From IMG/VR virus record IMGVR_UViG_3300046780_000888, positions 62,001-126,000 of that record: a DNA stretch of 64,000 nucleotides; one strand, 5' to 3'. A program made the translations under genes and the position numbers. Positions 1 through 62,794 of this stretch are shown piece by piece. The stretch is from a virus. Under the pieces are notes generated by a model, which saw only the letters and a program-made list of their open reading frames with translations, had not been told where the DNA came from and made no database searches. Numbering within the stretch: the first letter of the stretch is position 1; each line of letters begins with the position of its first letter.

Positions 1-137
1 CGGCGCGCCGCGTCCACCCGCCGGACTTCTATCAACGGTTTGGGCTCGCACCGGTCGGCGCAATGATGGCGGCGCGACTCAAGGAGCGATTTCCTGAGGC
101 CATTCGCAAGCTCGTTTTGGCGGGGAACTTCGGATGA
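1..137 (+). CDS. C-terminal end of an unknown protein (cut by window edge)
   Basis: An open frame enters from the left edge and ends with TGA at 135-137; the last 44 codons are visible. The tail is basic and amphipathic and ends KLVLAGNFG. The stop overlaps the next start (ATGA), so it is the first visible member of a rightward operon. Function cannot be assigned from this fragment. Confidence 0.6.
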   Translation, partial: ARRVHPPDFYQRFGLAPVGAMMAARLKERFPEAIRKLVLAGNFG

Positions 138-328
138 AATTCGAGCTGCTCGTTCTTGGCATCGCAGGCTGTTGTATGCTTTTGATAATCGGAATGGCGG
201 AAGCTTGCCAATCCGGTATCCACCGGGGGCGCTGTCTCGAGATCTGTGCGCCTGAGCCCCTCGAGACGACAACGACCAGCGGGTGCGTCTGCAGGAATGC
301 GGTGAGGCCATTGAAGGGGGTACCGTGA
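134..328 (+). CDS. Small secreted or membrane-anchored Cys-rich protein
   Basis: 64 residues. An N-terminal hydrophobic stretch (residues 4-20, containing GIAGCC) could be a signal peptide or a single membrane anchor; the rest has several Cys residues (ACQSG, RCLEIC, GCVC) that could form disulfides. ATGA overlap with the gene before and GTGA overlap with the gene after support translation. Family not recognised. Confidence 0.6.
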   Translation: MKFELLVLGIAGCCMLLIIGMAEACQSGIHRGRCLEICAPEPLETTTTSGCVCRNAVRPLKGVP

Positions 329-828
329 GATATTTTTTCGACACGGAGTTTATCGAGGACGGGAAAACCATCGACCTCATTTCGATTGGCATCGTGTGCG
401 AGGACGATCGGGAGCTGTACTGCTGTAACGCAGAGGCGAAGCTTCATCTGGCGTCGGACTGGGTGATCCAGAATGTCCTGCCGAGTCTCCCTCCAAAGGA
501 GTCCCCCACGTGGATGCCACGGGGCGAAATTGCTGACCTGGTGAAGGGATTCGTTCGGCAGTCCCTCATCAGCCCGACCCCTAAGATCGAATTCTGGGCG
601 TACTACGCAGACTACGACTGGGTGGCGCTCTGTCAGCTCTTCGGAAGGATGATAGATCTACCGAAGCAATTTCCGAAGTACTGCATGGATTTGAAGCAGC
701 TCTCGGTCATGCGGGGCAGTCCTACGCATCCGAAGCAGACCAGCGGGGAGCACAACGCGCTCGCGGATGCTCGATGGAACCGAGCCTTGTTCGAGTTCCT
801 CGGCAGAGCGGACTGGGAACGGCGATGA
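325..828 (+). CDS. DEDDh-type 3'-5' exoribonuclease, Rv2179c-like
   Basis: 167 residues from a GTG start at 325, chosen because it overlaps the previous stop (GTGA) and places the first acidic motif, FFDTEFIE, at the very N-terminus as in this family. That motif supplies the D-x-E pair; a middle ADYDW segment supplies the next acidic residue; HNALADARWN near the C-terminus is the H-x4-D motif. Proteins of this fold degrade single strands from the 3' end using two metal ions. Phage copies may trim RNA. The family call is by motif; the substrate is not shown by the sequence. Confidence 0.75.
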   Translation: MRYFFDTEFIEDGKTIDLISIGIVCEDDRELYCCNAEAKLHLASDWVIQNVLPSLPPKESPTWMPRGEIADLVKGFVRQSLISPTPKIEFWAYYADYDWVALCQLFGRMIDLPKQFPKYCMDLKQLSVMRGSPTHPKQTSGEHNALADARWNRALFEFLGRADWERR

Positions 829-1082
829 CGCACTGGAAGCTCTACTACCTGCTTGGCGCCGCCCTGTGGCTCGTTCTGAATCTGCGGAAGGTAGCGTCAT
901 TCGTTACCGATGGCGCGCTGACATTTACGCCGCCGCCGACCGGGCTCCGCCTCGTCGCGATCGCAATCGCGATGTTCTGGAGCTACGTCTGTGGCGCAGC
1001 CCTATGGCCAGGAAGCCTGGTGGTCTGGGCACTGGTAACGCTTCTGCAGCGAACAGCAGGCCCGGACGACGAGGAGTTCTGA
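825..1082 (+). CDS. Small two-helix membrane protein
   Basis: 85 residues from ATG 825, which overlaps the previous stop. Two or three hydrophobic segments (YYLLGAALWLVL, LVAIAIAMFWSYV and WPGSLVVWALVTLL) are joined by short loops, and the tail is acidic (PDDEEF). It is an inner-membrane protein of unknown role. Its stop shares one base with the next start. Confidence 0.6.
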   Translation: MTHWKLYYLLGAALWLVLNLRKVASFVTDGALTFTPPPTGLRLVAIAIAMFWSYVCGAALWPGSLVVWALVTLLQRTAGPDDEEF

Positions 1083-1300
1083 TGAATAAGAACCTTCTGA
1101 TCACGGGTGCGTTCGCGGCGGCGATGGCGGCGGGCGGTTACCCGCCGCTCACAATTCGCCGAGCGGCGACGTGGTATCCGCCGGAGCCCTCACCAGCACA
1201 GAACGCTGCGAGGCGACAGGCCGCCGAAGAGAAGCGCAAACGGAAGGCCGCGAAGCTCGAGGCAGCGGCGATGCGTGGCGGGATCCGGAGGGCCCCGTGA
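1082..1300 (+). CDS. Small protein with signal-like N-terminus and charged helix
   Basis: 72 residues. The start is hydrophobic (NLLITGAFAAAMAAGGY) and is followed by a Pro-rich turn and an Ala/Lys/Arg/Glu-rich helix (RRQAAEEKRKRKAAKLEAAA). It may be an exported or membrane-tethered protein. The GTGA overlap with the next gene supports it. Not recognised. Confidence 0.5.
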   Translation: MNKNLLITGAFAAAMAAGGYPPLTIRRAATWYPPEPSPAQNAARRQAAEEKRKRKAAKLEAAAMRGGIRRAP

Positions 1301-1524
1301 CGGCGACGCTCGAAGAAAAAGAGAACGAGACCGCCGAAGAGACGATCTCGAGGTGGCTCGATACTGAGTACGTCTTTGCAGAAGACAGGATGGAGATCCT
1401 TTTGGCATGCGTGGTTATGGAGCTCATCGGATTGTCCGATGCCGAGCGGGGGCAGATGTGGGTCGCGCTATCGGCGGTGGTCGAAAAGTACCAGACAGTC
1501 GAGAGCCGTGAGGACGCCAACTGA
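1297..1524 (+). CDS. Small acidic protein of unknown function
   Basis: 75 residues from GTG 1297, selected over longer upstream options because it overlaps the previous stop by four bases. Acidic and helical (EEKENETAEETI, then LLACVVMELIGLSDAER). No motif recognised. The stop overlaps the ATG of the glycosyltransferase by one base, so the two are probably translated together. Confidence 0.55.
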   Translation: MTATLEEKENETAEETISRWLDTEYVFAEDRMEILLACVVMELIGLSDAERGQMWVALSAVVEKYQTVESREDAN

Positions 1525-2639
1525 TGGCGCCGCGCGTCCGGCTCTACGGGACCGGGAACGGAGAGGGTTCGTTCGTGCAGGTGACACGCGGCATGCGACG
1601 GGCACTCGAGGCGGCCGGCGAACTCGCGGGGTTTTGTGCGCTGGACGACGACGAGCAGACGGCGGGGGCGAGCGCAGCCGTCTCGCTCAACATCGGCAAC
1701 CCCAACCAGCTCCTCCGAGCGCATCGGGACGGAGAGCACAGGTCCCATTGGTTACTCCTTGCCCCAAACGGAGAAACGCTGCCGTTCGGGTTCATGGACG
1801 GTCTTCTGAAGCCGTCGAAGGTACTGCCGAGAGGGATGCTCACCGGGGGCCTCTTAGCGCCGAGTGCATGGGCCGCGTCCGTGCTCCGCCGCTACGTCCC
1901 AGCGACGCTGCCGGTCGTGGTGGCCCCGCACGGGGTGACGCCCGAGGTACACGTCCTCGACGTTGCGCTCCGTACGCAGGCGACGCTCGAGTATCGAGGC
2001 GAGGCATTCAGCGTTCTTCACATGACGAGCAGCGAGACGGATCGCAAGGGAACGCAACAGCTGCTGCGCGCATGGAAAGAGTCGAAGCGCCGCGGAACGA
2101 TTCCAGGACGGGCCCGGCTCTATGTCGTGATGAATCCGGCTCACATGTCGAAGATCCGATGGTGGTGTGCGGATCTTGGGCTCACCGATCTCGATGTCCC
2201 CACACGGCCCGGGCTCATCGAGAGCCAAGACGGGATCGCCAAGCTGTACGGTTCGATGCACGCCGTCTGTCAGCCAAGCCGCGGGGAGGGCTTCGGTCTC
2301 GTCCCGCTCGAAGCGCTCGCGTGCGGGGTCCCGGTGCTGGCGACGTCGTGCACTGGGCATTCGGAGTACCTCCGCGACGGGCATCCTGGGGTGTGCTTCG
2401 TCGAAGACGGGCCCCTTGCCCCGATGGACGACTTCCCTGGCTCAATGGCGCCGTCGGTAACGGTGGAGGCGATTTGTTCGGGGCTCGTGCGGCTCTACTC
2501 GAACTGGGAGAAGACCGCTCAGATGGCCGAGGCGAACGCCGCTCGGGTGCGCACGGAGTGGGCATGGGAAAAGAAGAACGCGGTGCCGATTCGGCAGATG
2601 CTACAAAGCGCGGAACAACAGATGGAGAATCAACGATGA
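1524..2639 (+). CDS. Glycosyltransferase family 4 (GT-B fold)
   Basis: 371 residues. The C-terminal half carries the nucleotide-sugar-binding signature of GT4 enzymes: RGEGFGLVPLEALACGVPV, with the E-x7-E spacing, followed by a TSCTGHSEYL loop. The N-terminal half is a shorter Rossmann-like acceptor domain. Such enzymes move a sugar from an NDP-sugar to an acceptor. In a phage this could decorate virion proteins, DNA or host surface glycans; the acceptor cannot be read from sequence. It sits between two small genes with overlapping stops and starts. Two further, unrelated glycosyltransferases lie at 56.1-59.6 kb. Confidence 0.85.
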   Translation: MAPRVRLYGTGNGEGSFVQVTRGMRRALEAAGELAGFCALDDDEQTAGASAAVSLNIGNPNQLLRAHRDGEHRSHWLLLAPNGETLPFGFMDGLLKPSKVLPRGMLTGGLLAPSAWAASVLRRYVPATLPVVVAPHGVTPEVHVLDVALRTQATLEYRGEAFSVLHMTSSETDRKGTQQLLRAWKESKRRGTIPGRARLYVVMNPAHMSKIRWWCADLGLTDLDVPTRPGLIESQDGIAKLYGSMHAVCQPSRGEGFGLVPLEALACGVPVLATSCTGHSEYLRDGHPGVCFVEDGPLAPMDDFPGSMAPSVTVEAICSGLVRLYSNWEKTAQMAEANAARVRTEWAWEKKNAVPIRQMLQSAEQQMENQR

Positions 2640-2974
2640 CAGACGTTGCTGAGCAAGGAACAACCCCTCCTGGGACCGGGGACCGCCCGTCCGGATGGTT
2701 CGCTTTTCAGGAGAAGCCGGTGATGTTGCAGCTCGCCGAGCCGTACATCGCCTGCAGCTACTCGTACGCCCCGGTCCACGACAAGGAGGGCAACGTCCGG
2801 GCAACTCCGATCCTGCAGGGGATCCTCCACGTGGAGCCGGACGGCTCTGGCGGCGTGATGCTCGTCATAGAGATGCGGACTGGCAACGCGAACGACGTCG
2901 CGCTCATCGCCGTGAAACCGGGCGACGTGGTGTTCTGTTCGCACATCGTCCAGTCCTCGCTCATCACGCAGTAG
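2636..2974 (+). CDS. Unknown protein, probable beta-rich small domain
   Basis: 112 residues from ATG 2636, which overlaps the glycosyltransferase stop (ATGA). It alternates short hydrophobic strands (IACSYSYAPVH, LHVEPDG, GGVMLVIEMRT, VALIAVKPGDVVFC), suggesting a small beta-barrel or sandwich. No known family recognised. It could be a virion accessory protein. Confidence 0.55.
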   Translation: MTDVAEQGTTPPGTGDRPSGWFAFQEKPVMLQLAEPYIACSYSYAPVHDKEGNVRATPILQGILHVEPDGSGGVMLVIEMRTGNANDVALIAVKPGDVVFCSHIVQSSLITQ

Positions 2975-2979
2975 GACAC

Positions 2980-3645
2980 GTGCCGCGGGACACCTTTCGC
3001 ACCTGGCTTGCGGGTTGTCTCCGAGGGACGAAGTTCGCCTCGATAGAGCTTAATGATGCCGACATCGACAAGACGGCCAAGCGCCTGGGCGTCGATGTAG
3101 ATCTGCTGCTCGAGGTCAGGGCAAAAGCGCTTATCGAATTGCATGCGCGTGGGCTAGCGCCTGCGCCCTCGAATAGCCGGACTGCTGCCGCGCGGAAGCT
3201 CCTGGGACAGCAGCTCAAAGAACAAATGCGCTGGACCTACCAGTTTCATTTTCGGATGCCGCCTGAGATCATCAGCATGTGGAAAGCCGAGTGCGAACTC
3301 CGGGGAGTCCACCCGCCAACGTTCATGCGAAGCCTCATCCATGAGTACCTCCTCGGTACGCGAGAGCCTAGGGCCGTGCACCACTGGAGCTGGCGCGGGA
3401 AGATCTACCCCGCGTACCGCGCAGGAACGCACGAGCCCACCGTCATCACGCAGGGGGCGCGCCGAGCACTCTTTCACCGTTCGTCCTCGCTCGGGACCAG
3501 CGCCTCGGCGGTCGTCAGGGGCCTCGTGCTGGAGGCCATGGAGGGGGAACACAGGGACATCCCGCTCGTAACTGCGGGCATGATGTATGACGACGAAACC
3601 CGCTACAATACCGTCCCGCTTGACCCCAACCGGCGACCCCGGTAG
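2980..3645 (+). CDS. Unknown basic protein
   Basis: 221 residues from GTG 2980, the first start after the preceding stop. Two parts can be seen: a helical N-terminal half (LNDADIDKTAKRLGVDVDLLLEVRAKALIELH, residues about 20-60) that could contain a helix-turn-helix, and a basic half with RMPPEIISMWKAECELRG and ARRALFHRSSS. It may bind nucleic acid, but no family is recognised. Confidence 0.5.
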   Translation: MPRDTFRTWLAGCLRGTKFASIELNDADIDKTAKRLGVDVDLLLEVRAKALIELHARGLAPAPSNSRTAAARKLLGQQLKEQMRWTYQFHFRMPPEIISMWKAECELRGVHPPTFMRSLIHEYLLGTREPRAVHHWSWRGKIYPAYRAGTHEPTVITQGARRALFHRSSSLGTSASAVVRGLVLEAMEGEHRDIPLVTAGMMYDDETRYNTVPLDPNRRPR

Positions 3646-3656
3646 CCTTTCGAGCC

Positions 3657-4040
3657 ATGGCGTTTGCCGTCGGAGATCGGGCCCGAGTTCGGCTGTCGAG
3701 CGCAGCGCTGCTGGCCGGGACGTTGCAGCCGCAGCCGCCGCTTATTGGCCTCGTGCAAGACGTGACGGGTACGACGATCAAGGTGAGCTTCGGGGGAGCC
3801 GCGGCTGGCATTACCGTGGACGCCGCCTTCCTCGACCAGATCACCGATCTGGCGCCGAATATTCGCAATGCGCTGATCGACAAGGTCGTTCTCGGCCTCG
3901 GCTATCAGTCGGCGTACACGGGCCGCGTCGTGGACGCGTACATCGTGGATGGGGACTTCAAGGTTTTGGTCCAGGTGCTCGAGAACGAGATGTTCTACGA
4001 GCTACTCTTCCTCAACGTCGACATTCTGGGAGACCGCTGA
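3657..4040 (+). CDS. Unknown protein, possible virion component
   Basis: 127 residues, starting 11 bases after the previous stop. A beta-rich N-terminal part (VGDRARVRLSSAALL, IGLVQDVTGTTIKVSFGG) resembles a small barrel; a helical linker (DQITDLAPNIRNALIDKV) and more strands follow. It pairs with the next gene, 3 bases downstream. A structural role is only a guess from composition. Confidence 0.5.
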   Translation: MAFAVGDRARVRLSSAALLAGTLQPQPPLIGLVQDVTGTTIKVSFGGAAAGITVDAAFLDQITDLAPNIRNALIDKVVLGLGYQSAYTGRVVDAYIVDGDFKVLVQVLENEMFYELLFLNVDILGDR

Positions 4041-4043
4041 GCC

Positions 4044-4481
4044 ATGGCCCAAGGTGACGTTATCGCGGAGCGGATCAATCAGGTCTCTCCATCGACGATT
4101 CAGCCGCAGCCGGTCCACTTCGGCATCATCACGGCCCACGCGGCGCCAGGCGCACCGACGGTTCTCTGGGACACGGCGCTCATCGAAACCATGGCCGCGG
4201 CGGACGACGCCAGCCTGAACCTCGATGTCATCGAAAATGCGAGCGGGGCTAACGTCACCGCATTCACGGGAAAGACGGTGCTCCGCATCGCTCCCGCCGG
4301 CGACGAGCCAGGAGACCCATCGGGGGGCACGTCGCGCGAGTTCGTTGCAACGGTCGTTTCGATCTACAAGCGGACCCCGCTCGGGGACACTCCGGGATCG
4401 GGAGACGACTATCTGCTCGTGAAGAGTGGTGGCCTCTACTTCGAGGACTTGGCGACCCAGTTCACTCCGATCACCGTGTGA
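4044..4481 (+). CDS. Unknown protein, possible virion component
   Basis: 145 residues beginning MAQGDVIAERINQ. Mostly short strands and turns rich in Ala, Thr, Gly and Pro, without Cys or a membrane segment, as often seen in phage structural proteins. It follows the previous gene by 3 bases. No family recognised. Confidence 0.5.
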   Translation: MAQGDVIAERINQVSPSTIQPQPVHFGIITAHAAPGAPTVLWDTALIETMAAADDASLNLDVIENASGANVTAFTGKTVLRIAPAGDEPGDPSGGTSREFVATVVSIYKRTPLGDTPGSGDDYLLVKSGGLYFEDLATQFTPITV

Positions 4482-4568
4482 ATGGCGCGCCCAGAAGAAT
4501 CGACGACGTGGCTGGAACTCTTCGGCTTCTTCGCGCTCTGTATCATCGAAAAGCTGGTCGACGGGTGA
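4482..4568 (+). CDS. Tiny peptide with one membrane helix
   Basis: 28 residues (MARPEESTTW, then a hydrophobic LFGFFALCIIEKLV). The start lies directly after the previous TGA. Its size and single hydrophobic helix fit a small membrane peptide. It is the last rightward gene before leftward genes begin, so part of the signal could be chance. Confidence 0.35.
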   Translation: MARPEESTTWLELFGFFALCIIEKLVDG

Positions 4569-4594
4569 TCGTGAGCGGCGCTCCGCTCCCTCAA

Positions 4595-4861
4595 TTACTC
4601 GGAGGTGCGCGCTACCCGTCGAGCAAGGGTGGGTCCTAGCGTGTCCGGGTTGCCGGTGTAGTCGCAGCCGTCTTTGATGCAGACGTAGTGCTCGAGACGG
4701 CAGCAGGTGTGGGTCCCGTCGAATGGGTAGCAGGAGGTCCCGAAGTATCCGCACGGATACGGAGTGCCTGGCCCGGTCTTCGGCGTAAGGAGCGTCCCTC
4801 CGCAGCCGGTGAGGGCGACTCCTACGACCAGGAGTAAGAACAGCCCGATGGCGCGGATCAT
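4595..4861 (-). CDS. Lipoprotein, Cys-rich
   Basis: 88 residues. The N-terminus is a typical lipoprotein signal: basic start, hydrophobic LFLLLVVGVAL, then lipobox LTGC (Cys about residue 20). The mature part has several Cys (PYPCGYFGTSCYP, THTCCRLEHYVC, KDGC). It would be anchored in a membrane of the host. Phage lipoproteins often serve in lysis (outer spanins) or superinfection exclusion; neither can be decided here. The gene overlaps the next upstream gene by ATGA. Confidence 0.65.
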   Translation of the reverse strand: MIRAIGLFLLLVVGVALTGCGGTLLTPKTGPGTPYPCGYFGTSCYPFDGTHTCCRLEHYVCIKDGCDYTGNPDTLGPTLARRVARTSE

Positions 4862-5559
4862 GACCGCGCCATCCTACGAGCGGTCCGAGAGTACGGACTT
4901 GATTTCATGGCGGCGCGGTGCGGGCGCTCACGCGCCATCTCCCGAAAGTGCTCGGAGAATTCCTGGCTCGGGGCGCCGTTCGTTTCGATGACGATGTCGT
5001 AGCCCCCTGGAGTCCTGGCGGGTGCGGGGCCGGACAGTTTGCCCATGAAGTCGAACTTCTCGCCGGGTATGGGCGTGTCGCGGAAGTAGTTCGGGGTGAC
5101 GAAGTTCGAGACGGTGACCATCGTGTCGCCGATCTGCTTCGAGTACGAGTCGTTCTCGACAGCGTCGCATAGCTCGAGGGCTCGCATCTTCCCGTCGGGG
5201 CATTGGTGCCACAGTGTGCACGAGGGATCGGCGAAGGCTTCGCAGAGTTCATGCGACAGGACGCTAGAGACGGTCTGGCCATCGGCCAAGGCCGTTTTTG
5301 CAAAGATGAAGACGATGGGTTTCCCCTGATCGTCCACGTCATGAAACCCGAGCTCTCCGGGCGAGTCGGCGTCGTCCTTGACCTGGACCTGGTAGGCGTC
5401 CGCGTCTACGGCCCCGTTGTCGGAGAACTCCACGACCGGCGCCAGTCGTTCCCAGGTGGGCGCGACGTCTTCGCGGAGCTGCGCGGCGCAGCCGGCTGTG
5501 TCGAGCATCAGCTCCGCGTTGGTGCGGACCGTGCAGTCGTTTTGGATCTGGAACTTCAT
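4858..5559 (-). CDS. Possible zinc metallopeptidase-like protein
   Basis: 233 residues from ATG 5559, supported by GGAGG 9 bases upstream; an in-frame TTG six bases earlier is also possible. The centre has VLSHELCEAFADP, resembling the first part of an HE-xx-E/H zinc helix, followed by LWHQCPDGKMRALELCDAVE with more His, Asp and Cys. A FNF/NYFRD segment follows. Similar stand-alone proteins occur in phages and bacteria without a proven activity. Peptidase function is inferred only from the HE motif; the canonical final His of HExxH is absent. Confidence 0.5.
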   Translation of the reverse strand: MKFQIQNDCTVRTNAELMLDTAGCAAQLREDVAPTWERLAPVVEFSDNGAVDADAYQVQVKDDADSPGELGFHDVDDQGKPIVFIFAKTALADGQTVSSVLSHELCEAFADPSCTLWHQCPDGKMRALELCDAVENDSYSKQIGDTMVTVSNFVTPNYFRDTPIPGEKFDFMGKLSGPAPARTPGGYDIVIETNGAPSQEFSEHFREMARERPHRAAMKSSPYSRTARRMARS

Positions 5560-5822
5560 CGACAAGAGCCTCCGCAGGTCAGGATGCGCGCAGCGCAGTA
5601 CGGGTCGGGATTCGAGAGGTTCGTGACCACCGCCGGGCAGTCGGCGAGGCAGTGCTCCAAAGGAGCCATGGCGGTTCCCCCCGGGCAGGGCGTCTGCCGC
5701 GCAGTGGCGCAGGCGCTCGCGCAGCTTCCCGCGTCCTGGACGGGCGGCGGAGTGACCGGCGGCGGACTAGGCGCGGTTCGAGAACAGGTCATCAGAGCCA
5801 GGCCGAGCAAGGCGTGTTTCAT
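5556..5822 (-). CDS. Small lipoprotein or secreted Cys-rich protein
   Basis: 88 residues from ATG 5822 (MKHALLGLALMTC). The start gives a short signal sequence ending at Cys12; the lipobox (LMTC) is imperfect. A Pro-rich stretch (PSPPPVTPPPVQ) leads to a Cys-rich domain with repeated pairs (CASAC, TPCPGG, HCLADC, YCAAR, CGGSC) likely to form disulfides. An upstream GTG at 5846 is an alternative start. The stop overlaps the next gene. Confidence 0.55.
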   Translation of the reverse strand: MKHALLGLALMTCSRTAPSPPPVTPPPVQDAGSCASACATARQTPCPGGTAMAPLEHCLADCPAVVTNLSNPDPYCAARILTCGGSCR

Positions 5823-5858
5823 GTCTCTCGGAGGGAAGGATAGCACAGGTCACTCCGA

Positions 5859-6128
5859 TCACCGCATGAGCCGAACGAAGCCCCACGGCGCCACCCGCGC
5901 GGCCCCTCGCTTGAGCTCGCGCCGCCGCTCGGCGCGACAGACGCGGCATTCCGGCCGGCGCCCGCCGGGGCTTGCGGCGTGTGGCGCGAAGTCCTCGACG
6001 GTCAGATCAGGTCTCGTGCACCAGGCGCATGCTCGGGGCGACTCCGGAGGGAGCGGCACCACACGATGATGCGGGGGGATCGGGGGGTATCCCGGAAGAA
6101 ACTGACCGTTTACGGCGCGCGGCTTCAT
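5859..6128 (-). CDS. Small zinc-finger protein
   Basis: 89 residues. Two CxxC pairs (CAWCTRPDLTVEDFAPH and ECRVCRAERRRELKR), about 35 residues apart, suggest one zinc site, and the C-terminus is strongly basic. This resembles the treble-clef style proteins found in phages (HNH-associated or DNA-binding), but the catalytic HNH His-Asn-His is not visible. It lies seven bases after the large recombinase and is probably co-transcribed with it. Confidence 0.6.
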   Translation of the reverse strand: MKPRAVNGQFLPGYPPIPPHHRVVPLPPESPRACAWCTRPDLTVEDFAPHAASPGGRRPECRVCRAERRRELKRGAARVAPWGFVRLMR

Positions 6129-6134
6129 GAGCGA

Positions 6135-9100
6135 CTAGAACGGCAACGTCATCGCCGCCATCATCCGGATGGCGCTCGGTAGTACCTGCTCGGCGTTCGC
6201 GACGTAGTCCGCCCCGCACGCAAACGCCCCGACGGTCATGTACCGCGGCGGCGGCGCGTTCGGGACCATGTCGTCGCCCGATAGGTGATGCTCTCCGCCG
6301 ACCGAGAGGAGCTCCTCCCAGGCGGACTCCTCGGGCTCCTCGATCTCGATCGGCTCTGCCTCCCGCACGGGCGTTCTACGCGCGCCCGCTGGCCTCCGGC
6401 GGACGACGGTGCCCCCCGGAGTGACGACGACCTGTCCGTCCTTGACGGCGCTTTTCGCGATCGCAGCCGCAACCTCTGGCGCCGGGAGCGCCACCTGGGC
6501 CCGCAGCGAATCGGACAGGAGGCCCGCTTCGATGACCTCGTCGGCGCTCTTCTCATCGAGTCCTTCCTCAATGACCAACCGGCGAAGCGCGCCTTCGTCC
6601 ATGTCGCGATCGATACGGACGATCCGCTGGCTCGCTCGCCGGACCCCGTTGAGCCAGACCATGCGAACGTCTTTGCCGGTGAGCTCGGCCGCCATCCGTG
6701 TTTCGATCTCGGCGGGGCACGGGAAGATCCAGGCCATGTACGAGAGCATCACGGAGTAGAGCATGCTGTACTCCGACGACCGCTTCGGGCCGCGTTCGAC
6801 GGGGATCCCGTGCCGCTTCACGTGCTCCCACATGCCGCGGGCGGCGCGACGGACGACGCACTCCGAATCGCGCCCGTCGTAGCTGAGAGCGAACTGCTCA
6901 CGAAACTCCTTCGTGTGCGAGATGGTGTGCTTCGAGAGATCGAGTCGCAATGTGCTCGCGTCGAAGAGCCGGCTTTTCAGCACGTTGGGGTCGATCTCTT
7001 CGATGCCGATGTCGGGGAAGGCGTTGCCGAGGAGCCGCTCGATGGTCGCGTCCCGCTTCGATCGCTTCTTCGTGGTCCCCTCCTTGAGGGCCTCTTTCGG
7101 ATCTTGGACCCCGTACTCCTCAAGCTGCTCGACCAGGAACTTGCGGGTCCGCTCGATGCTCTCGCGCGCGTCCTTGTCTCCGCTGGCTGTGCGCAGTTGC
7201 TCGATCGTCTCGTAGTACTCCTTCAGGAGCTCTCGGGCCTGCGCGACGCGCCCGAGGCGCTCCTCGGTGGCGAACTCGAGCTCCTTCGTGATCGTGTCCT
7301 TTCGGACCTTCGTGAGCTTCTGTCCGGTGATGGCCCCGAGCCATTTCACGAACCAGTCCCATTCGTCGCGGTGGTTCTCGTAGATGTCCCGTACCGGATC
7401 GTCGAGGACGAACCAGTCAGGGAGCTCTTCTGCGGGGCTCACGCCGATGACGGAGGCGTCGCGCCATGTCGCCTGAAACTCGACCCACTCCTCGTCGTCG
7501 AGGTCACTCTTCCCTCTCGGTCGCTCGATGTCCTCGAAGGCCCGGACCGTCGTCGTGTACCGGTCGGCGTTCAGTTCGAGCCAGGTGATGAGGTACTCCT
7601 CGTCGTGCGCCCGGATGTCCTTGCCGACGGTCGCCGACGCATCGAACGGGGCCCATCGGAACTTGTGCTTCGTTCCTCGCTCGAGACCCTCGAGCATCTT
7701 CAGGAACGCGCCCCACCATCGATCGAGCCCGAACGCTTTCGTGGGGGAGGTGCGAAGCCATCGGGCGCGCATGTGCTCGACCGTCTCCCAGAGCTTCTTC
7801 GCGTGGATCGGTGCGAGCGCTGGATCCATTTGCTTGCGAGCGAGGACCGGCAGCGGCGGCACGACGACGGCACGACGTGCGCCCGTCTTATCCCGCACCT
7901 CGACGGTCACCTCTCCGTTCGCGGACGAGGAGCCGCGAGCGAACCAGGGAAGGAGTGAGCTCTCGCCGATGCCGTAGTTGATTGGCCACGGATCGTAGTT
8001 TTCCTGGAGCCACGGATTCTGCTGGACGAGGTCCCGCTTGTCGCCTGGGAGGGCGAGGTTCGCGAGCTTCCGCCCCTTCGGGGTATCTCTCCGGAGGTTC
8101 ACCCGGGAGAACTCGATCCGTTCCTGCTCTCCCGTGCGCTCGCCGGCTGCGACGCCCGCGGGGGGCGGCCGGAGCCCTGCGTACGCATGCACCGGCGAGG
8201 GGGGCGAGATGCCGTCCCGGACCTCCGATCCCGGCGGTACCGCCGGTCCCTCCGCCCCGACGGCCACGAGCCCCCGTCCGGTCGGGACAACGGCGTCAGG
8301 GGCCACCTTGGGCGACTGGGCCGGTAGCCCCTCCCGTACGAGACGCTCCAGCTCCCGGGTCGCCCGCGCCGGGCGCCGTTGGGGCCTCGGGGGCGCCCGA
8401 GGCCGCTCCGCTCGCGCAGGGACCGCGTACGTGTCGATGACGGGCTTGGACGCCCTCACGGGCGGCTGGCGGGGCGCCTCGGTGTCAGCCGGTGCCGGCG
8501 GCTCGTGGGCGGCGCCCGCGATGAAGTCGAGAATTTCATTCTGCCCGGAAAGCGCCTCTGTGCTCGTATCGGCCTCGACGTAGGTCTCGGTGGTCAGGAT
8601 CGACTCGTGACCGAGCATGTGTTGGATCTCCCGGAGGGGTTTGCCCTTCCGGGACATGGCCGTCGCGGCGAAGTGCCGAAACGCGTGCGCGTGCACGAGG
8701 GCCTGCTCGTCCTCGGTGAACCCAGCCTTCTTCGCGATGCGCTTCAGCAGCGCGTCAGCGCCGTTCCTGGTCATCGGTCGCCGGTAGTCGGGCCGCGTGC
8801 TCCTGTTCGGTTTGAGCTCCTGGTAGTTGTGAGTCGAGTTCGCTCCCCAGAAGTGCACGGGAGGGAAGAGCGGCGCGTCGGGCTCTTCGGAGAGCAGCTT
8901 GTAGCGCCACCCGATCGCGCTCGGAGCGAGGTAGTGCAATCCCTTCGGATTGTCGCTCTGCGTCCCCTCGAGCGGCGCGTGCCGCGAGAGCTCCACCTGG
9001 AACGCGGTCAGGGCTTTGAGAGCGTACGGCGGAAAGGGGAGCCGCTGATGAAACCCGCGCTTCCTGACGAGCTCTACCGCCGGTGGGTTCGATCGCCCAT

Positions 9101-10172
9101 CGTACCAGCCGGGCCACCGCATCACATCACTCGCCGGCGGCCGGTCCCGCCGAATGCGCAGGCTCTCGGTCACGCGCGCGCCCGTGAGGACGAGAAACCA
9201 GAGGAGGGCTGCGTCGCGCTTATCGGTGAGCTGCGGCCCGTCTGCGGCTTGCAGCATCCGCTCGACGAGCTGCGGGGACAGCTTCCCCTTCCGGGCGCGC
9301 CCGGCGCGCCTGTCGGCGCCGAGGCCCACGCGCACTCGGGCCCCGACGTCGGCGAACACGTTGTGGCGGATGAGCGCGCCCTCGCCGCTCGACGTGTCGG
9401 CCTCCATGAGCGCCTTCCAGAACGCGGAGAGGGCCGCGATCCGAACGACGATGGTCGTGCGCCCGACGGCGCGGGGGCGAGGCAGGGAGTAGGAGAAGAT
9501 CTCGTCGAGTGGCACCTCGTGCCTCTGCTCTCCGTCAGGCACGATCACTACGAAGGTGGAGATCCCGATGCGTGGGTCGTCGCGGCGGAGCTCCTCCATC
9601 GTCGGCGAGCGGACAAGGAGCCCATGGAGCACCATGCGACCGAGTTCGGCATGGAGCCACGGCCGATCGATGACGGCGCTGTTGCTCCGGGACGGGTGGG
9701 CGCTCGCGAGCCAGACAGGGACCTTCGTCACGATGCTCGTGATGTCGGTCGTGCCGAGTTCCTTCACGATGTCGTAGAGCGCGAGGCGCACGCGCTGGTC
9801 GCCATCGCGGAGCTTCTCTCCCTCGAGCGAGAAGGTTCGTGTCGCGAGCCACTCGACGTAATCCTCTGCGTCCTTCCTCGTGACCTCAGGCGGCGAGACG
9901 ACGCGCCCGTACTTCGTGGCGATCCACTCGAAGAACTCGGTCAGCGCCGCGGCGTAGACGCGTCTCGTCGCCGGCGAGTAGGTGCCGATGTACGCCTCGT
10001 ACTCCGTCGACCCCTGCTGTTCCGATCTGCCCGTGAACCGAGAGAGGACGGAGGCGTACCGGTGGGAGGCCGCCTTGTCGCCGCCGGCAAAGGCCGTCGT
10101 CCACTTCTCGAGCGATTCCGGTGCGGTCTTCCCCCGGAAGAGGGCCAGCTCCGGCCGGTTCGGTTTGGGCAT
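6135..10172 (-). CDS. Tyrosine recombinase with an 800-residue C-terminal extension
   Basis: 1345 residues from ATG 10172; an in-frame ATG at 10214 exists, but a promoter-like element just upstream of 10172 fits a leaderless transcript. Residues about 55-110 resemble a SAM-like core-binding domain. The catalytic domain spans about 295-540: R333 in TGARVTESLRI, K371, H496-x-x-R499 in HAHAFRHF, H522 in MLGHES and Tyr531 in TETYVEA. This is the full set for phage integrases, XerC/D and related enzymes, which cut and rejoin DNA through a 3'-phosphotyrosine. Typical members are 300-450 residues long. Here a Pro/Arg-rich linker (about 560-680) leads to roughly 650 more residues with charged helical segments that I do not recognise. 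No attachment site was found next to it. Confidence 0.85.
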   Translation of the reverse strand: MPKPNRPELALFRGKTAPESLEKWTTAFAGGDKAASHRYASVLSRFTGRSEQQGSTEYEAYIGTYSPATRRVYAAALTEFFEWIATKYGRVVSPPEVTRKDAEDYVEWLATRTFSLEGEKLRDGDQRVRLALYDIVKELGTTDITSIVTKVPVWLASAHPSRSNSAVIDRPWLHAELGRMVLHGLLVRSPTMEELRRDDPRIGISTFVVIVPDGEQRHEVPLDEIFSYSLPRPRAVGRTTIVVRIAALSAFWKALMEADTSSGEGALIRHNVFADVGARVRVGLGADRRAGRARKGKLSPQLVERMLQAADGPQLTDKRDAALLWFLVLTGARVTESLRIRRDRPPASDVMRWPGWYDGRSNPPAVELVRKRGFHQRLPFPPYALKALTAFQVELSRHAPLEGTQSDNPKGLHYLAPSAIGWRYKLLSEEPDAPLFPPVHFWGANSTHNYQELKPNRSTRPDYRRPMTRNGADALLKRIAKKAGFTEDEQALVHAHAFRHFAATAMSRKGKPLREIQHMLGHESILTTETYVEADTSTEALSGQNEILDFIAGAAHEPPAPADTEAPRQPPVRASKPVIDTYAVPARAERPRAPPRPQRRPARATRELERLVREGLPAQSPKVAPDAVVPTGRGLVAVGAEGPAVPPGSEVRDGISPPSPVHAYAGLRPPPAGVAAGERTGEQERIEFSRVNLRRDTPKGRKLANLALPGDKRDLVQQNPWLQENYDPWPINYGIGESSLLPWFARGSSSANGEVTVEVRDKTGARRAVVVPPLPVLARKQMDPALAPIHAKKLWETVEHMRARWLRTSPTKAFGLDRWWGAFLKMLEGLERGTKHKFRWAPFDASATVGKDIRAHDEEYLITWLELNADRYTTTVRAFEDIERPRGKSDLDDEEWVEFQATWRDASVIGVSPAEELPDWFVLDDPVRDIYENHRDEWDWFVKWLGAITGQKLTKVRKDTITKELEFATEERLGRVAQARELLKEYYETIEQLRTASGDKDARESIERTRKFLVEQLEEYGVQDPKEALKEGTTKKRSKRDATIERLLGNAFPDIGIEEIDPNVLKSRLFDASTLRLDLSKHTISHTKEFREQFALSYDGRDSECVVRRAARGMWEHVKRHGIPVERGPKRSSEYSMLYSVMLSYMAWIFPCPAEIETRMAAELTGKDVRMVWLNGVRRASQRIVRIDRDMDEGALRRLVIEEGLDEKSADEVIEAGLLSDSLRAQVALPAPEVAAAIAKSAVKDGQVVVTPGGTVVRRRPAGARRTPVREAEPIEIEEPEESAWEELLSVGGEHHLSGDDMVPNAPPPRYMTVGAFACGADYVANAEQVLPSAIRMMAAMTLPF

Positions 10173-10190
10173 AGCGTTAACATAAACGCT
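10173..10190 (-). promoter_or_regulatory. Candidate leaderless promoter of the recombinase gene
   Basis: Reading leftward, TTATGTTAAC (10185-10176) lies three bases before GCT-ATG. The TATGTT part would serve as a -10 box placing transcription start at or near the ATG at 10172. The same ten bases occur before the leftward gene starting at 23916. No clear -35 box is visible. Confidence 0.4.
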
Positions 10191-10233: not shown

Positions 10234-10668
10234 GTGTCCGCCGCCAGCCGAATCGTTGATGGGCTCTGGGTCGGCGCGGCGCCCCCGCCCGGGGACTACA
10301 CGGACCAGTTCGACGTCATCGTCTTCACGGCGGAGGAGTATCAGCCGCCGGCGTCGTACTTCCCTGGCGTGAAGGTGCGGCACTTCCCGTACGACGACAA
10401 GCAACCGCCGAGTCAGACAGATCTGATGACGGCGTGGTCTGGGGCGGAGGCGGTTGCCAGCGACCTTCGCCGTGGTCGGAATGTCCTGGTCACCTGCAGG
10501 ATGGGGCGGAATCGTTCGGCGCTCGTCGCGGCCCTCGCGCTCCACCTCGTGACGGGCGAGCCCGGTCGCGAGTGTCTCAGGATCGTACGGAGTAAGAGGA
10601 CCGATCAGGAAGGGATCCGCGCGCTGTCGAACAAGGCGTTTCAGCAGTACCTGACGGCGCTGCCGTGA
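10234..10668 (+). CDS. Dual-specificity-type protein phosphatase
   Basis: 144 residues from a GTG start preceded by a GAGGGGA ribosome-binding site. The active-site loop VTCRMGRNRSALV fits the C-x5-R signature of cysteine-based phosphatases; the residue before Cys is Thr instead of the usual His. An upstream acidic FPYDDKQPP loop can supply the general acid. Such enzymes remove phosphates from proteins or nucleic-acid 5' ends. It is divergent from the recombinase gene and stands alone, so it is probably expressed from its own promoter. The kinase-fold gene at 38.1 kb could be a functional counterpart, which is speculation. Confidence 0.75.
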   Translation: MSAASRIVDGLWVGAAPPPGDYTDQFDVIVFTAEEYQPPASYFPGVKVRHFPYDDKQPPSQTDLMTAWSGAEAVASDLRRGRNVLVTCRMGRNRSALVAALALHLVTGEPGRECLRIVRSKRTDQEGIRALSNKAFQQYLTALP

Positions 10669-13388: not shown

Positions 13389-13907
13389 TCATTTGCAACC
13401 GAACCCTGGCGGCATTGAAAAGAGGCACCCGCAAACGCCCGCGAATGGGTTGTACGGGATCTGTCCGGGATCAACGCAGCAGGCTCCATCGGTGCAGTCC
13501 GGGCAGACGGTTACGCTGTAGATGTGGCCATCTGCTTCTCGCTTGCCGCAGCAGAAGGAGCCGCCCTGGGCGCGGCACGCGAGAACCGGATCGACGGGCG
13601 TCCGGCCGGCGTCAGGGGGCTCTGGTACGCCTCCCTCGACGCCCGCCCCGCCGGTTCCGGCTCCGCCGCTGCTGCCGGCAGCGCCCCCTGAGGCCACATG
13701 AGCCCCTCCGGACGCCACGGCGCGCCCTCCCCCACCGCTGGCGCCACCGGCGCCGCCCGAGCTTGGCCGGCCCCCTGACGGTAGGACGGCGCGCCCAGCG
13801 CCGCCGTCCCGGGAGCACTGGTAGCACGTGGTGAAGTCCGCTCCGCCGCACGACGTGAGCAGCCAGAGGAGGATGAGACAGAGAATAGCGATGATGAGTT
13901 TTGTCAT
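13389..13907 (-). CDS. Myxobacterial-style lipoprotein with Gly/Ser-rich linker
   Basis: 172 residues. Signal peptide LIIAILCLILLWLLTSC ends in lipobox LTSC, followed by GGADF. Residues about 40-95 form a Gly/Ser/Ala-rich disordered linker, then a Cys-rich domain (CCGKREADG, CPDCTDGACCVDPG, GVCGCLFSMPPGFGCK). A paralogue with the same CGGADF start and Gly/Thr linker lies at 26148-26642. Such proteins are abundant in Polyangia, so this may be host-derived cargo. Its stop is followed in frame by a DUF1643 remnant. Confidence 0.7.
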   Translation of the reverse strand: MTKLIIAILCLILLWLLTSCGGADFTTCYQCSRDGGAGRAVLPSGGRPSSGGAGGASGGGGRAVASGGAHVASGGAAGSSGGAGTGGAGVEGGVPEPPDAGRTPVDPVLACRAQGGSFCCGKREADGHIYSVTVCPDCTDGACCVDPGQIPYNPFAGVCGCLFSMPPGFGCK

Positions 13908-14458
13908 GGGCTCCCCGGCGTTTCCTCGATCACGCCCCGCTCGCTCTTGAGCTCAGCGCGGATCGCGTCCTGCAGTCTTGGGAAGGAGATCTTGGCCCAA
14001 TGCTCGAGGCCTCGCGACATGCGATAGACGCCGAACTCGAAGGCCTCCTCGATCCGTGTCTCCGCGATCCAGTGGTGAAAGCCAACCTCCCCGTCGTCCT
14101 CGACGCTGCTGTTGGCCAGCGCCCATTCATGACGAGCCTGACTCTTCGAGAGGCCAAGCTCCCTCCTGGTCTTCAGGATGTAGGACTGGATGCGCTTCCG
14201 CGTTTCCTCCCCGTCGTAGACCTTCAGTTCTTCCCTCCGTCCGGAGCCGAACTTGGTAGCAACGTAGTGCCAGTCAGCCTGCAACAGGAACTCACGGAAG
14301 TCCGAGTGCCCACAATGCTGCACGCTCCATCGGTAGCACCAGTCTCCGTAGTCCGAGCAGACCGCGACCGTGCCCGTGGAGTCCACGAAGACGATGGACC
14401 AGGAGTCACGCCAGTCCGGGAGCGACGGCAGGTGATATCGGTAGGTGCTGACGGTCAT
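13904..14458 (-). CDS. Unknown phage-type protein
   Basis: 184 residues, overlapping the lipoprotein start (ATGA). The N-terminal half is rich in Trp, Tyr and Asp with short strands (YRYHLPSLPDWRDSWSIVFV, CSDYGDWCYRWSVQHCGH); the C-terminal half is helical (ETRKRIQSYILKTRRELGLS). The globular, aromatic-rich first half resembles widespread phage proteins of unknown role. Confidence 0.6.
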   Translation of the reverse strand: MTVSTYRYHLPSLPDWRDSWSIVFVDSTGTVAVCSDYGDWCYRWSVQHCGHSDFREFLLQADWHYVATKFGSGRREELKVYDGEETRKRIQSYILKTRRELGLSKSQARHEWALANSSVEDDGEVGFHHWIAETRIEEAFEFGVYRMSRGLEHWAKISFPRLQDAIRAELKSERGVIEETPGSP

Positions 14459-14745
14459 GGGTGGCCCAATGTCGGGTACAGATCAGGACGGTCACTCATG
14501 AATGGAATCGCGGTCCGGCGCGCCAGGCACTCTGAGACGCTGTCCGCCATCACGTCTTTGCCGTTAAGGAAGCCGCGATAGTAAGCGTCCTTCACGTTCC
14601 GCGCCGCCTGCGCCAGGAGTCGCTCCTTCTCCTTCTCGAACTCGGCTGTGACGCGGTCGAACTCGCTCTTCATCGAGAGGCGCTCCGCCGCGACGGCTCG
14701 CGCGATGGCGTCATCTCTTTCTTGTTTCAGGTCGCGATATCTCAT
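14455..14745 (-). CDS. Small coiled-coil protein
   Basis: 96 residues. Residues about 5-50 are highly charged and heptad-like (KQERDDAIARAVAAERLSMK, FDRVTAEFEKEKERLLAQAA), predicting a coiled coil. A globular tail follows with FLNGKDVMADSVSECL. Overlaps the downstream gene by ATGA. Not recognised. Confidence 0.6.
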   Translation of the reverse strand: MRYRDLKQERDDAIARAVAAERLSMKSEFDRVTAEFEKEKERLLAQAARNVKDAYYRGFLNGKDVMADSVSECLARRTAIPFMSDRPDLYPTLGHP

Positions 14746-23424: not shown

Positions 23425-23916
23425 TCATGAGGCTCGCGAAAACGCGCGCCCACCAGATAGAGTGTACTCGCCCACAATGGGCTCCCCGATGCCAGGCCTG
23501 CAGCGCGCCGAGAGACACTTGCGCGGTTCGCCGGCAACGCGCCGGATGACGGGGCGTGGTTCGGCCGGGCGCTTCCCTTCGCCGAACACGTAGAAGCTCC
23601 GCGGATCTGGGGGCGCGACGCGCGCCATGGCATGAGCGATCGCGCCGTTCATGTCCCGCACTCGGGCCGGTCCGACGCGCAGCACGGGTGCCGCGACAGA
23701 GGCGAGCGACCGTGCGCCGCGGTCAGTCACCGCGAAGACGACGATCGTGCGACCGTCGGAGAGAGATACTGACCAGGAAAGGAGCGTGCGGCCATTCGCT
23801 TGCGCCGTGCGGATTGCCCGGGCTTGCTCGGTCGCGAGTTTCGTTTCGGGGTTCATGCCGTACTTGGCCAGGAACAGGGGCGGGCCCTCTTCGGGACCGG
23901 GGGCTCGAGCCCTCAT
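23425..23916 (-). CDS. First gene of the leftward operon, unknown function
   Basis: 163 residues. ATG 23916 is favoured over the internal ATG at 23856 because a TATGTT -10-like box sits five bases before it, as at the recombinase gene. The N-terminus contains EEGPPLFLAKYG, whose DNA is the left arm of a 20-bp inverted repeat. A middle beta-rich part (TLLSWSVSLSDGRTIVVFAV) resembles small barrel domains. No known family. As the promoter-proximal gene it may regulate or start the leftward operon. Confidence 0.55.
   Translation of the reverse strand: MRARAPGPEEGPPLFLAKYGMNPETKLATEQARAIRTAQANGRTLLSWSVSLSDGRTIVVFAVTDRGARSLASVAAPVLRVGPARVRDMNGAIAHAMARVAPPDPRSFYVFGEGKRPAEPRPVIRRVAGEPRKCLSARCRPGIGEPIVGEYTLSGGRAFSRAS
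23867..23886. repeat. 20-bp inverted repeat, left arm
   Basis: GCCAGGAACAGGGGCGGGCC, exactly complementary to 24021-24040. It lies within the coding region of the 23916 gene (GPPLFLA). Confidence 0.7.
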
Positions 23917-23932
23917 ACGTTAACATAATGTT
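23917..23932 (-). promoter_or_regulatory. Candidate leaderless promoter of the leftward operon
   Basis: Reading leftward, TTATGTTAAC (23928-23919) is followed by GT-ATG of the 23916 gene. The same ten bases precede the recombinase start. With TATGTT as the -10 box the transcript would begin at about the ATG. The sequence upstream is AT-rich (AAAAACAACAT). Confidence 0.45.
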
Positions 23933-23978
23933 GTTTTTCCCAACGCTATACCATACCCGCGTTACTGTTTGCAATGGT

Positions 23979-23993
23979 TATCACAACGTGATA
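23979..23993. promoter_or_regulatory. Palindromic operator candidate in the divergent promoter
   Basis: TATCAC-AAC-GTGATA is a perfect 6-3-6 palindrome in the middle of the 137-bp gap between the two long divergent operons. The arrangement is typical of a repressor or Cro/CI-like binding site that could switch both operons. A TTATCAC stretch also resembles a shortened DnaA box. Confidence 0.5.
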
Positions 23994-24020
23994 GTCTCCT
24001 GGCGCGGGACGCGCGGAAAA

Positions 24021-24040
24021 GGCCCGCCCCTGTTCCTGGC
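24021..24040. repeat. 20-bp inverted repeat, right arm
   Basis: GGCCCGCCCCTGTTCCTGGC, exactly complementary to 23867-23886, located just before the first rightward gene. The two arms enclose 134 bases that contain both divergent promoters. Confidence 0.7.
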
Positions 24041-39784: not shown

Positions 39785-40029
39785 CGCGCCCGGAGCTCCC
39801 TATGCAGGGCCCAAATGATTTCTCCGGGGATCCACACGAACCAGACTACCGCTCGCACGACGAAGATCCCCGCAATGACCGAGCACGCCGCAAAGCGTCG
39901 CCATGCCTCCACGGGATCTCCGCAGCACGGACAGCGGCGCCTCCACGTGTTCCGGAGCGCCTTCCACATCACCGGCACGGCGATGAGCGCCGTTGCGATA
40001 CCAACCGAGACGTAGAGTCGCCAGATCAC
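39781..40029 (-). CDS. Small membrane protein with CPCC motif
   Basis: 82 residues from GTG 40029. Two hydrophobic helices (LYVSVGIATALIAVPVMWKA; FAACSVIAGIFVVRAVVWFV) with a CPCCGDP loop between them. Overlaps the transglycosylase gene (GTGA) and the zinc ribbon gene (ATGA). It lies directly downstream of a lytic enzyme, so a holin-like or spanin-like role is possible but unproven. Confidence 0.55.
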   Translation of the reverse strand: MIWRLYVSVGIATALIAVPVMWKALRNTWRRRCPCCGDPVEAWRRFAACSVIAGIFVVRAVVWFVWIPGEIIWALHRELRAR

Positions 40030-40691
40030 GTCGCCGCCTTGAGCCACTTTGGCTTCGCCGTGAGCCCAGCAATCACCGCCGCGGCATAGAGCCCGGCCCC
40101 TCCGACAGCGAGACCGAGCAGCGTCCGCCCGTACCGCGGGCTCATGTCGAGATACATGACGGCGGTGTTGTTCCACTTGATGACCGAGCCGGCGTAGTCG
40201 CCTGCCATCGCGAGGTTCCATGCATTGCGACCGGTGTCGCACACGCGTCCGCTGTTGTAGGCCGCCGCCATCTCCGGAAGCTGACCATCGCGCAGATTGG
40301 CTAGCTTGGCTAGCAGTTCAGCACCGACGCGAATATTTGCCTTCGGGTCGTACATGTCGTCCGGCGTCGCACCGAACCCAGCTGCCGTCGCCGGCATGAT
40401 CTGCATGACGCCGATGGCGCCCGCGCCAGAGACCTTCGAGGCTTGGTCGCTCGGGTTCTCGGACCAGAGGCCCGTCTCCTCGGTGGCGATGGCGAGAAGC
40501 CATGCGGGCGGGACTCCCGTGCTACCACCCGCGTCCAAAAACAATCCCCCCCAGTTGGCCCACGTCTGCTCCATCTGTCGGAATTGAATGGTTCCTGGAG
40601 CGAAGAACGGCGTTCCTTGGCCTTGGACGGCGATGAGGCCGTCTCCCTGCATTTCCCAAGCGAGGCCGCCACAGGTGTTCGTAAAGGCCAC
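40026..40691 (-). CDS. Soluble lytic transglycosylase-type enzyme (SLT fold)
   Basis: 221 residues. LLAIATEETGLWSENPSDQA gives the catalytic Glu in the ExxG context; GAIGVMQIMPATAAGFGATP is the second motif and MAAAYNSG the third. A C-terminal hydrophobic segment (GLAVGGAGLYAAAVIAGLTA) may tether it to the membrane or virion. The enzymes cut the glycan strands of peptidoglycan, in phages mainly at the injection step. Directly upstream of the 82-residue membrane protein. Confidence 0.8.
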   Translation of the reverse strand: MAFTNTCGGLAWEMQGDGLIAVQGQGTPFFAPGTIQFRQMEQTWANWGGLFLDAGGSTGVPPAWLLAIATEETGLWSENPSDQASKVSGAGAIGVMQIMPATAAGFGATPDDMYDPKANIRVGAELLAKLANLRDGQLPEMAAAYNSGRVCDTGRNAWNLAMAGDYAGSVIKWNNTAVMYLDMSPRYGRTLLGLAVGGAGLYAAAVIAGLTAKPKWLKAAT

Positions 40692-44882: not shown

Positions 44883-44918
44883 GAATATGCATGGTACCCG
44901 ATTCGTCCAAGCTAGCCA

Positions 44919-45008
44919 ATGCTGAACCCCGTCGTGGTCGTGGCCATCGCCTGGATCGCCTTCCCTTTCGCCTGGGGCCTTGCCCGCCTCTGGCGGAGCG
45001 CCCCGTGA
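44919..45008 (+). CDS. Tiny membrane peptide, holin candidate
   Basis: 29 residues: a single hydrophobic helix (VVVVAIAWIAFPFAWGLARL) with a short basic tail. ATG 44919; the stop overlaps the next start (GTGA). It lies divergent from the amidase gene. Confidence 0.45.
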   Translation: MLNPVVVVAIAWIAFPFAWGLARLWRSAP

Positions 45009-45160
45009 CGGCGTCGCTCGCGTACCTCCTTGGGTGGCTCTCCGGTGGCCTCTGCGGTATTTTGGTCGGAGCCTGGTGGGAAGCCCGACAGTCCGTCCAG
45101 CTACGTCGTAGAGAGAGCGTTCCAGCGGAGAGTGGCGACGACGCGGATCACACTCGCTAG
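45005..45160 (+). CDS. Small membrane protein, holin or spanin candidate
   Basis: 51 residues from GTG 45005. One hydrophobic segment (SLAYLLGWLSGGLCGILVGA) and a charged tail (WWEARQSVQLRRRESVPAES). Coupled to the preceding 29-residue peptide. The pair next to an amidase gene suggests lysis proteins. Overlaps the convergent fibre gene by 60 bases. Confidence 0.45.
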   Translation: MTASLAYLLGWLSGGLCGILVGAWWEARQSVQLRRRESVPAESGDDADHTR

Positions 45161-46284: not shown

Positions 46285-47544
<1,260 letters not shown>

Positions 47545-47554
47545 TCAACCATGG

Positions 47555-48871: not shown

Positions 48872-48872
48872 T

Positions 48873-50367
<1,495 letters not shown>

Positions 50368-54297: not shown

Positions 54298-55458
<1,161 letters not shown>

Positions 55459-59588: not shown

Positions 59589-62794
<3,206 letters not shown>

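Follow-up and report, generated by a model that had tools for sequence, protein, structure and literature searches.

What does a virus do with a tyrosine recombinase of 1345 residues, and on which DNA does such an enzyme act? The question is raised by a 64,000-nucleotide stretch of viral DNA (the window), bases 62001-126000 of the 130,395-bp IMG/VR virus record IMGVR_UViG_3300046780_000888, here called G000. The comparisons below indicate that the enzyme probably works together with a four-arm DNA element elsewhere in the genome, and the chances are about evenly balanced that the two form a self-contained, single-protein resolvase, like Xer/dif or TnpI, that keeps the circular viral genome monomeric. 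Positions refer to the window unless they are given for G000.

The original prediction, made from the letters alone, placed a 1345-residue tyrosine recombinase at 6135-10172. The frame is exact and lies on the minus strand, a detail that the prediction omitted; the plus strand across the same interval is interrupted by stops. The frame opens at an in-frame ATG at 10214, which would give 1359 residues. The start at 10172 is favoured because the conserved recombinase N-terminus, MPxPNRPEL, begins there and because the resulting gap to a divergent phosphatase-like gene, 61 bp, resembles the 59-64 bp found in four relatives. The catalytic residues named earlier (R333, K371, H496, R499, H522 and Y531) are correct, and these, together with E336, are identical in 11 of 11 homologues. 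Pfam Phage_integrase (PF00589) matches the protein with 65.4 bits against a cut-off of 27.1 bits, a PHROG integrase family matches with an E value of 4e-21, and the top PDB profile matches are XerA and XerD. The R-K-HxxR-H-Y set is present within the matching domain, which makes the protein a member of the tyrosine recombinase superfamily. Strand cleavage through the recombinase tyrosine is predicted.

Scans of IMG/VR for relatives, a check that had been proposed at the outset, recover the same architecture in ten other virus contigs, with lengths of 1198-1432 residues. Identity to the G000 recombinase is 53-67% in G001-G005, 44% in G007, 34% in G026 and ~24-30% in G010, G014 and G016. A frameshift or assembly error joining two genes had been named as the way in which the prediction could fail. 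An uninterrupted architecture in 11 contigs at ~24-67% identity rules such a fusion out, and the probability left to it is negligible.

The DNA on which the enzyme may act is indicated by a short motif. In G000-G005, TTATSGTAACG immediately precedes the recombinase ATG; apart from this copy it is confined essentially to one locus, where it is part of inverted repeats. This second locus is the four-arm element: two inverted repeats of ~11-6/7-11 bp (dyads of ~28-29 bp), spaced 12-14 bp apart, or 11 bp in G026, whose inner ends are typically ATAA and TTAT. The element is present in all 10 giant-recombinase genomes that hold the region (G000-G005, G010, G014, G016 and G026); the fragment G007 lacks the region and is not counted among them. 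In G000, dyad 1 reads CGTTAACATAA-tgttgt-TTTTCCCAACG (23918-23945) and is followed after 14 bp by dyad 2, CGTTACTGTTT-gcaatgg-TTATCACAACG (23960-23988). The G005 element consists of CGTTACCATAATACAAACCTATGGACACG, 13 bp and CGTTACCATAA-CGTCAC-TTATGGTAACG, and in G026 both dyads are perfect: ACGTTGCCATAA-tgacga-TTATGGCAACGT, 11 bp, and ACGTTTCCATAA-gcttca-TTATGGAAACGT. Arm sequence differs between clades, and five arm types are seen. The arms are CGTACGGATAA in G010, found by geometry alone with 63 of 66 points, CGGGCTCATAR in G014 and CGTGACGCTAA in G016. The spacers differ even among close relatives, as can happen in sites that pair with copies of themselves.

A half-site matching the arms stands at the recombinase start in seven viruses (G000-G005 and G026) and is presumed to be an autoregulatory site. 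In G026 this half-site has changed to ACGTTTCCATAA, the sequence of an arm of that virus, and has the opposite orientation. The motif was also considered as the −10 box of a leaderless gene; the inversion and co-variation of the G026 copy argue against a promoter box, and this reading was rejected.

The motif was picked after seeing the data: a first dyad search, based on shared 9-mers, gave nothing above shuffles, and a G005 dyad in its output matched the recombinase-upstream motif. A blind geometry scan is the fairer test. In that scan nothing else in the genome outscores the element in G002, G003, G004, G005, G010, G014 and G026; its scores there are 32-42, where ten shuffles of each genome reach 27-32. 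Eight genomes of the same virus lineage with short recombinases (G008, G009, G011, G012, G015, G018, G022 and G027) show no element in the blind scan; their top scores of 28-32 lie at most 2 points from their shuffles and fall mostly in repetitive sequence. An exact-pattern scan of IMG/VR returned G026, G005 and one match in AT-rich coding sequence, which has no recombinase and was judged to be due to chance. Co-occurrence, co-variation and geometry together suggest that the recombinase binds the four-arm element.

In G000 the element sits between divergent open reading frames (ORFs), with the ATG of the minus ORF at 23856 and that of the plus ORF at 24054. Outer inverted repeats flank it in G000 and also in G001-G005, G014, G016 and G026, where the sequence has changed on both arms and complementarity is kept. 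These repeats extend into the leaders of both divergent ORFs, and G000 and G002 share sequence around CCTGGCCAAGTA before the starts. Because of this reach into both leaders, the outer repeats may have a regulatory function instead of belonging to the recombination site. On the scale of the complete genomes, cumulative GC skew places the element on the side of the skew maximum, away from the minimum; it lies 289 bp from the maximum in G003 and 563 bp in G004. In the near clade, the skew minimum is found by the DnaC and DnaB genes.

A comparison with known resolution systems shows where the likeness lies. Escherichia coli dif, GGTGCGCATAA-TGTATA-TTATGTTAAAT, has an 11-6-11 layout with ATAA-N6-TTAT (PMC3025954), and the viral dyads have the same layout and the same inner ends. 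Xer systems with a single recombinase include XerH/difH, XerS/difSL and archaeal XerA/dif (PMC5357621). Like these, the viruses combine a tyrosine recombinase with one site per circular genome and with near-symmetric arms, and by GC skew the viral site may also lie on the terminus side; two 11-bp arms around a 6-7-bp centre, one site per genome, are found throughout, in degenerate form in G000, G001 and G016. Unlike them, the present enzyme is encoded by a virus and is four times larger (1198-1432 versus ~300-360 residues), with an insert and a new C-terminal region, and the viruses have two adjacent dyads rather than one, a site far from the gene and no recognised partner of the FtsK type. 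The irs site of TnpI and the rst site of TnpS/TnpT resolve cointegrates of Tn3-family transposons (PMC7157771). They share with the viral element a core inverted repeat joined by a second pair of subsites, for which the two dyads, as putative recombinase subsites, would qualify, a position between divergent genes and possible control of the recombinase's own expression. The viruses differ in having no transposon at the gene, a site that is not beside the gene and a much larger protein, and the second subsite pair of TnpI consists of direct repeats. Since size, the distance between site and gene, and the lack of a transposon do not fit while the other features do, the enzyme is classed as a tyrosine recombinase and is not filed as a member of Xer/dif or TnpI; it may still work like them.

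Cre of phage P1 has 343 residues and acts on loxP, a single dyad whose centre measures 8 bp. The low-confidence model of the N-terminal part of the giant has a weak, non-significant fold match to Cre. Both are virus-encoded tyrosine recombinases, and the genome monomerisation that is proposed here has been shown for P1 (PMC2409434).

These likenesses lead to the following model of resolution. The recombinase would bind the 11-bp arms and pair two four-arm elements, strand exchange would take place across the 6-bp centre of the better-matched dyad, and the other dyad, in an accessory role, would make the reaction selective for topology, in the manner of TnpI/irs or TnpS-TnpT/rst. The reaction would convert genome dimers or multimers into monomers. 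The near-symmetry of the arms would fit a single recombinase better than an XerC/XerD pair. The recombinase probably also represses its own gene, given that seven of the viruses with the element have a half-site directly at the recombinase start. The C-terminal region could do the regulatory or architectural work for which small recombinases depend on FtsK or helper proteins, and might bind a partner or the outer repeats.

Several observations count against this model. Single-recombinase dif sites usually lie beside the recombinase gene (PMC5357621), and the viral element is ~11-47 kb from it (14 kb in G000). G010, G014 and G016 have no half-site near the recombinase. The elements of G002 and G014 beat their own shuffles by just one point, the pair is unremarkable in the blind scan of G000, G001 and G016, where only synteny or one strong dyad identifies it, and one dyad is often degenerate with a 7-bp centre. 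A second skew method puts the element only loosely near the terminus, at 0.08-0.51 of the half circle, and gene orientation can itself cause skew, so that the skew placement is supportive only. Finally, no FtsK-like partner was recognised in the 15 genomes profiled, in which FtsK-type profiles, like those of terminases, were negative or sub-threshold.

Phage tyrosine recombinases are most often integrases, and the leading alternative, unlikely though it is, makes this enzyme the integrase of a temperate virus. The four-arm element would then be attP, one dyad serving as crossover core and the second dyad or the outer repeats as accessory (arm-type) sites, while the larger protein would add host-site targeting or directionality. 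The PHROG integrase matches agree with this, a dyad with a 6-7-bp centre would suit a core site, and the variable centres could mean different host targets. The original prediction implied an ordinary integrase with a neighbouring attP repeat. That expectation is not borne out at the gene: the ~60-bp upstream gap and, in relatives, a 4-bp downstream overlap leave no room for a conventional attP beside it, and the candidate site is instead 14 kb away and takes the form of a double inverted repeat like dif, an arrangement that points to resolution no less than to integration. The contigs moreover map as circles without host flanks. A pattern scan of 84,980 GTDB genomes found no relative of either half of the recombinase, and phage and plasmid collections held none; this evidence is weak, as the host clade may be unsampled.

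Resolution of genome multimers is favoured over integration, and a purely regulatory role for the element ranks below both as quite unlikely. On this view, another viral protein, or the recombinase in the role of a repressor, would bind the element as an operator or as a control region for replication, with the true recombination target elsewhere or absent. Its place between divergent genes and the arm copy at the recombinase start speak for such a role, and there is precedent in MrpR/YopR of SPbeta (PMC10516654), a phage protein with a tyrosine-recombinase fold that works through an intergenic DNA element as a repressor. MrpR, however, has lost the catalytic residues and binds many dispersed elements, whereas the giants retain the full set and have one element and a half-site, the arms being essentially confined to these two loci. 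The dif-like layout of the dyads, and the lack of the element in related genomes with other recombinases, also argue against an operator. A protelomerase-like enzyme making hairpin ends is very improbable. Such an enzyme would likewise be a large protein of the tyrosine-recombinase type with a palindromic target region, but the genome would be linear with hairpin ends at the target; the viral assemblies continue across the element to form closed circles, and the centre of each dyad is not a palindrome.

If the resolvase model holds, what does the extra protein contribute? The original prediction recognised no domain in the C-terminal part, and this stands: past about residue 550, no family matched in Pfam, PHROG or PDB. 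It did not mention an insert at residues ~113-235, which is specific to the giants and has no Pfam or PDB match. In a low-confidence AlphaFold model of residues 1-579, made from a six-row alignment (predicted local distance difference test, pLDDT, 52.8), the order of helices and strands in the insert gives a hint of a winged helix, and Foldseek with this model returned weak, non-significant matches to Cre and XerD. Fold prediction of the C-terminal region, another check proposed at the start, gave a mean pLDDT of 48.6 from a six-row alignment and no usable fold; Foldseek matched nothing and no homologue was found. The region appears mostly helical, with low confidence. Of the roles that the original prediction offered for it, a module for targeting, for dimerisation or for second DNA binding, or a second enzyme, each may apply. 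As a separate gene, it was not found in viral contigs or in the ORFs of the related genomes that were read. Substitutions are concentrated at third codon positions in every domain, least in the proline-rich linker, and codon-position counts therefore indicate that the C-terminal ~600 residues are under constraint as protein. The features of the locus and of the element are collected in Table 1.

Table 1. Window coordinates of the recombinase gene, its parts and neighbours, and the four-arm element
Feature	Position	Strand	Evidence or remark
Giant tyrosine recombinase, 1345 residues	6135..10172	-	ORF, conserved start, Phage_integrase above cut-off, 10 same-architecture homologues
Insert of ~120 residues (~113-235) inside core-binding domain	9468..9836	-	All giants have it; short recombinases of G021-G023 lack it
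Catalytic domain (residues ~295-550) with R333, E336, K371, H496, R499, H522, Y531	8523..9290	-	Pfam and PDB profile matches; invariant in 11/11
Proline-rich linker (residues ~556-655), lowest conservation in the protein	8208..8507	-	Alignments, codon-position counts
Conserved C-terminal region (residues ~656-1250), no known family	6423..8207	-	Homologue alignments, profile searches
Conserved C-terminal tail (residues ~1288-1345), ending LPSAIRMMAAMTLPF	6138..6311	-	Alignments
Half-site TTATGTTAACG just upstream of recombinase start	10175..10185	-	Same motif as arms of the four-arm element
Divergent neighbour, dual-specificity-phosphatase-like	10234..10668	+	DSPc E 6.5e-5, below curated cut-off; synteny
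Convergent neighbour, 145 residues, last gene of virion/glycosyltransferase block	4044..4481	+	Synteny
Four-arm element, candidate recombination site	23918..23988	.	Degenerate copy, recognised by synteny with better-matched copies of relatives
Outer perfect 20-bp inverted repeat, 23867-23886 and 24021-24040	23867..24040	.	Flanks four-arm element

The phosphatase-like gene adjoins the recombinase gene throughout the near clade and likely starts earlier than its ORF suggests, at a GTG at ~10234. In four relatives the convergent neighbour and the end of the recombinase gene, with its stop, share 4 bp. In G000 the two are separated by ~1.6 kb containing two ORFs of 235 and 89 residues (4858-6128, minus strand); because this gap is absent in the four relatives, the stretch looks like an insertion in G000. 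No transposase lies beside the G000 recombinase gene.

The viruses themselves belong to what seems to be an undescribed lineage of large bacterial viruses, whose GC-rich genomes map as circles. A candidate capsid protein (G000 47539-48354) is 86-88% identical in near relatives and, used as a query, retrieves 26 further records of one lineage, 9-182 kb in length; 17 of the 18 records of at least 110 kb encode a tyrosine recombinase, which, like the circular maps, speaks for the resolvase model. The gene of this capsid candidate is one of three that are conserved and stand in tandem beyond the window (G000 47539-50402); none of them has a database match, and profiles of the candidates matched nothing significantly in PDB. 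The circular maps follow from end overlaps, which are exact and 120-132 bp long in seven records. In G000, bases 1-9887 recur as 120509-130395 (58509-64000 of the window and beyond), a near-identical direct repeat of 9,887 bp that leaves a unit of 120,508 bp and represents either a circular assembly overlap or terminal redundancy. Lineage genes encode an SLT transglycosylase, an amidase, an M23-like peptidase, a DnaC/IstB-like protein, RuvC, ThyX and, by inspection, a DnaB-like helicase, and a gene set of this kind makes bacteria very probable as the hosts. The proteins scanned included nothing recognisable as a terminase, portal or tail protein; one candidate terminase, in G014, was dismissed as a helicase-like protein by inspection. 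Many proteins of the putative virion block end in a hydrophobic segment resembling a membrane anchor, and the lineage is possibly tailless and membrane-containing.

Other genes of the window round out this picture. Lysis-type enzymes are encoded on the minus strand at 40026-40691, 44043-45575 and 49789-50367; the set comprises an SLT transglycosylase, an amidase with a peptidoglycan-binding domain and an M23-like peptidase below cut-off. A collagen-repeat protein of 974 residues (59589-62513, minus strand) shares a domain of ~130 residues with the products of 46285-49784 and 54895-56067 (minus strand), and these proteins are possibly virion fibres. On the plus strand, 34025-36411 encodes a 583-residue protein with a sub-threshold match to the Cas12f1-like TNB (TnpB-type) family and a 212-residue companion ORF; it has no relatives in near genomes and is probably an inserted mobile element. 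G000 also carries a second, short tyrosine recombinase of 316 residues (G000 13755-14705, minus strand, outside the window), in a region unique to G000 and of the type that occurs alone in the short-recombinase clade.

The history of the giant enzymes can be read from two trees. In the recombinase tree, the giants form one clade with support of 80/89, and the lineage's short enzymes are split among at least three distinct groups. By the capsid tree, the majority of the viruses with short recombinases make up a clade that lies nested amid those with giant enzymes. The simplest reading of these trees is a single origin of the giant recombinase and its later replacement by unrelated enzymes, and therefore the viruses may need the recombinase function but be able to exchange the enzyme that provides it.

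Neither the giant architecture with its double site nor a description of such viruses or such a recombinase was found in the databases and open-access literature searched, both of which are incomplete. Known single-recombinase resolution systems use small enzymes whose control comes from FtsK or accessory proteins. A bolder proposal, tentative and rather unlikely in its entirety, is that the giants represent a one-protein resolvase of a new class, with ~600 fused C-terminal residues that would stand in for FtsK or helpers and sense genome topology or the state of replication or packaging, the enzyme acting on a double dif-like site in undescribed 110-180-kb bacterial viruses without recognisable terminase that would probably be tailless and membrane-containing. 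A recombinase with a possibly fused control module and a predicted target of ~70 bp would allow direct tests of how directionality is imposed, and the five arm types would offer new orthogonal pairs of recombinase and site. The virus lineage itself, in which neither a terminase nor known capsid genes are recognisable, is also of interest. If the resolvase model is true, there are large bacterial viruses with circular maps that come equipped with a genome-monomerisation system of their own.

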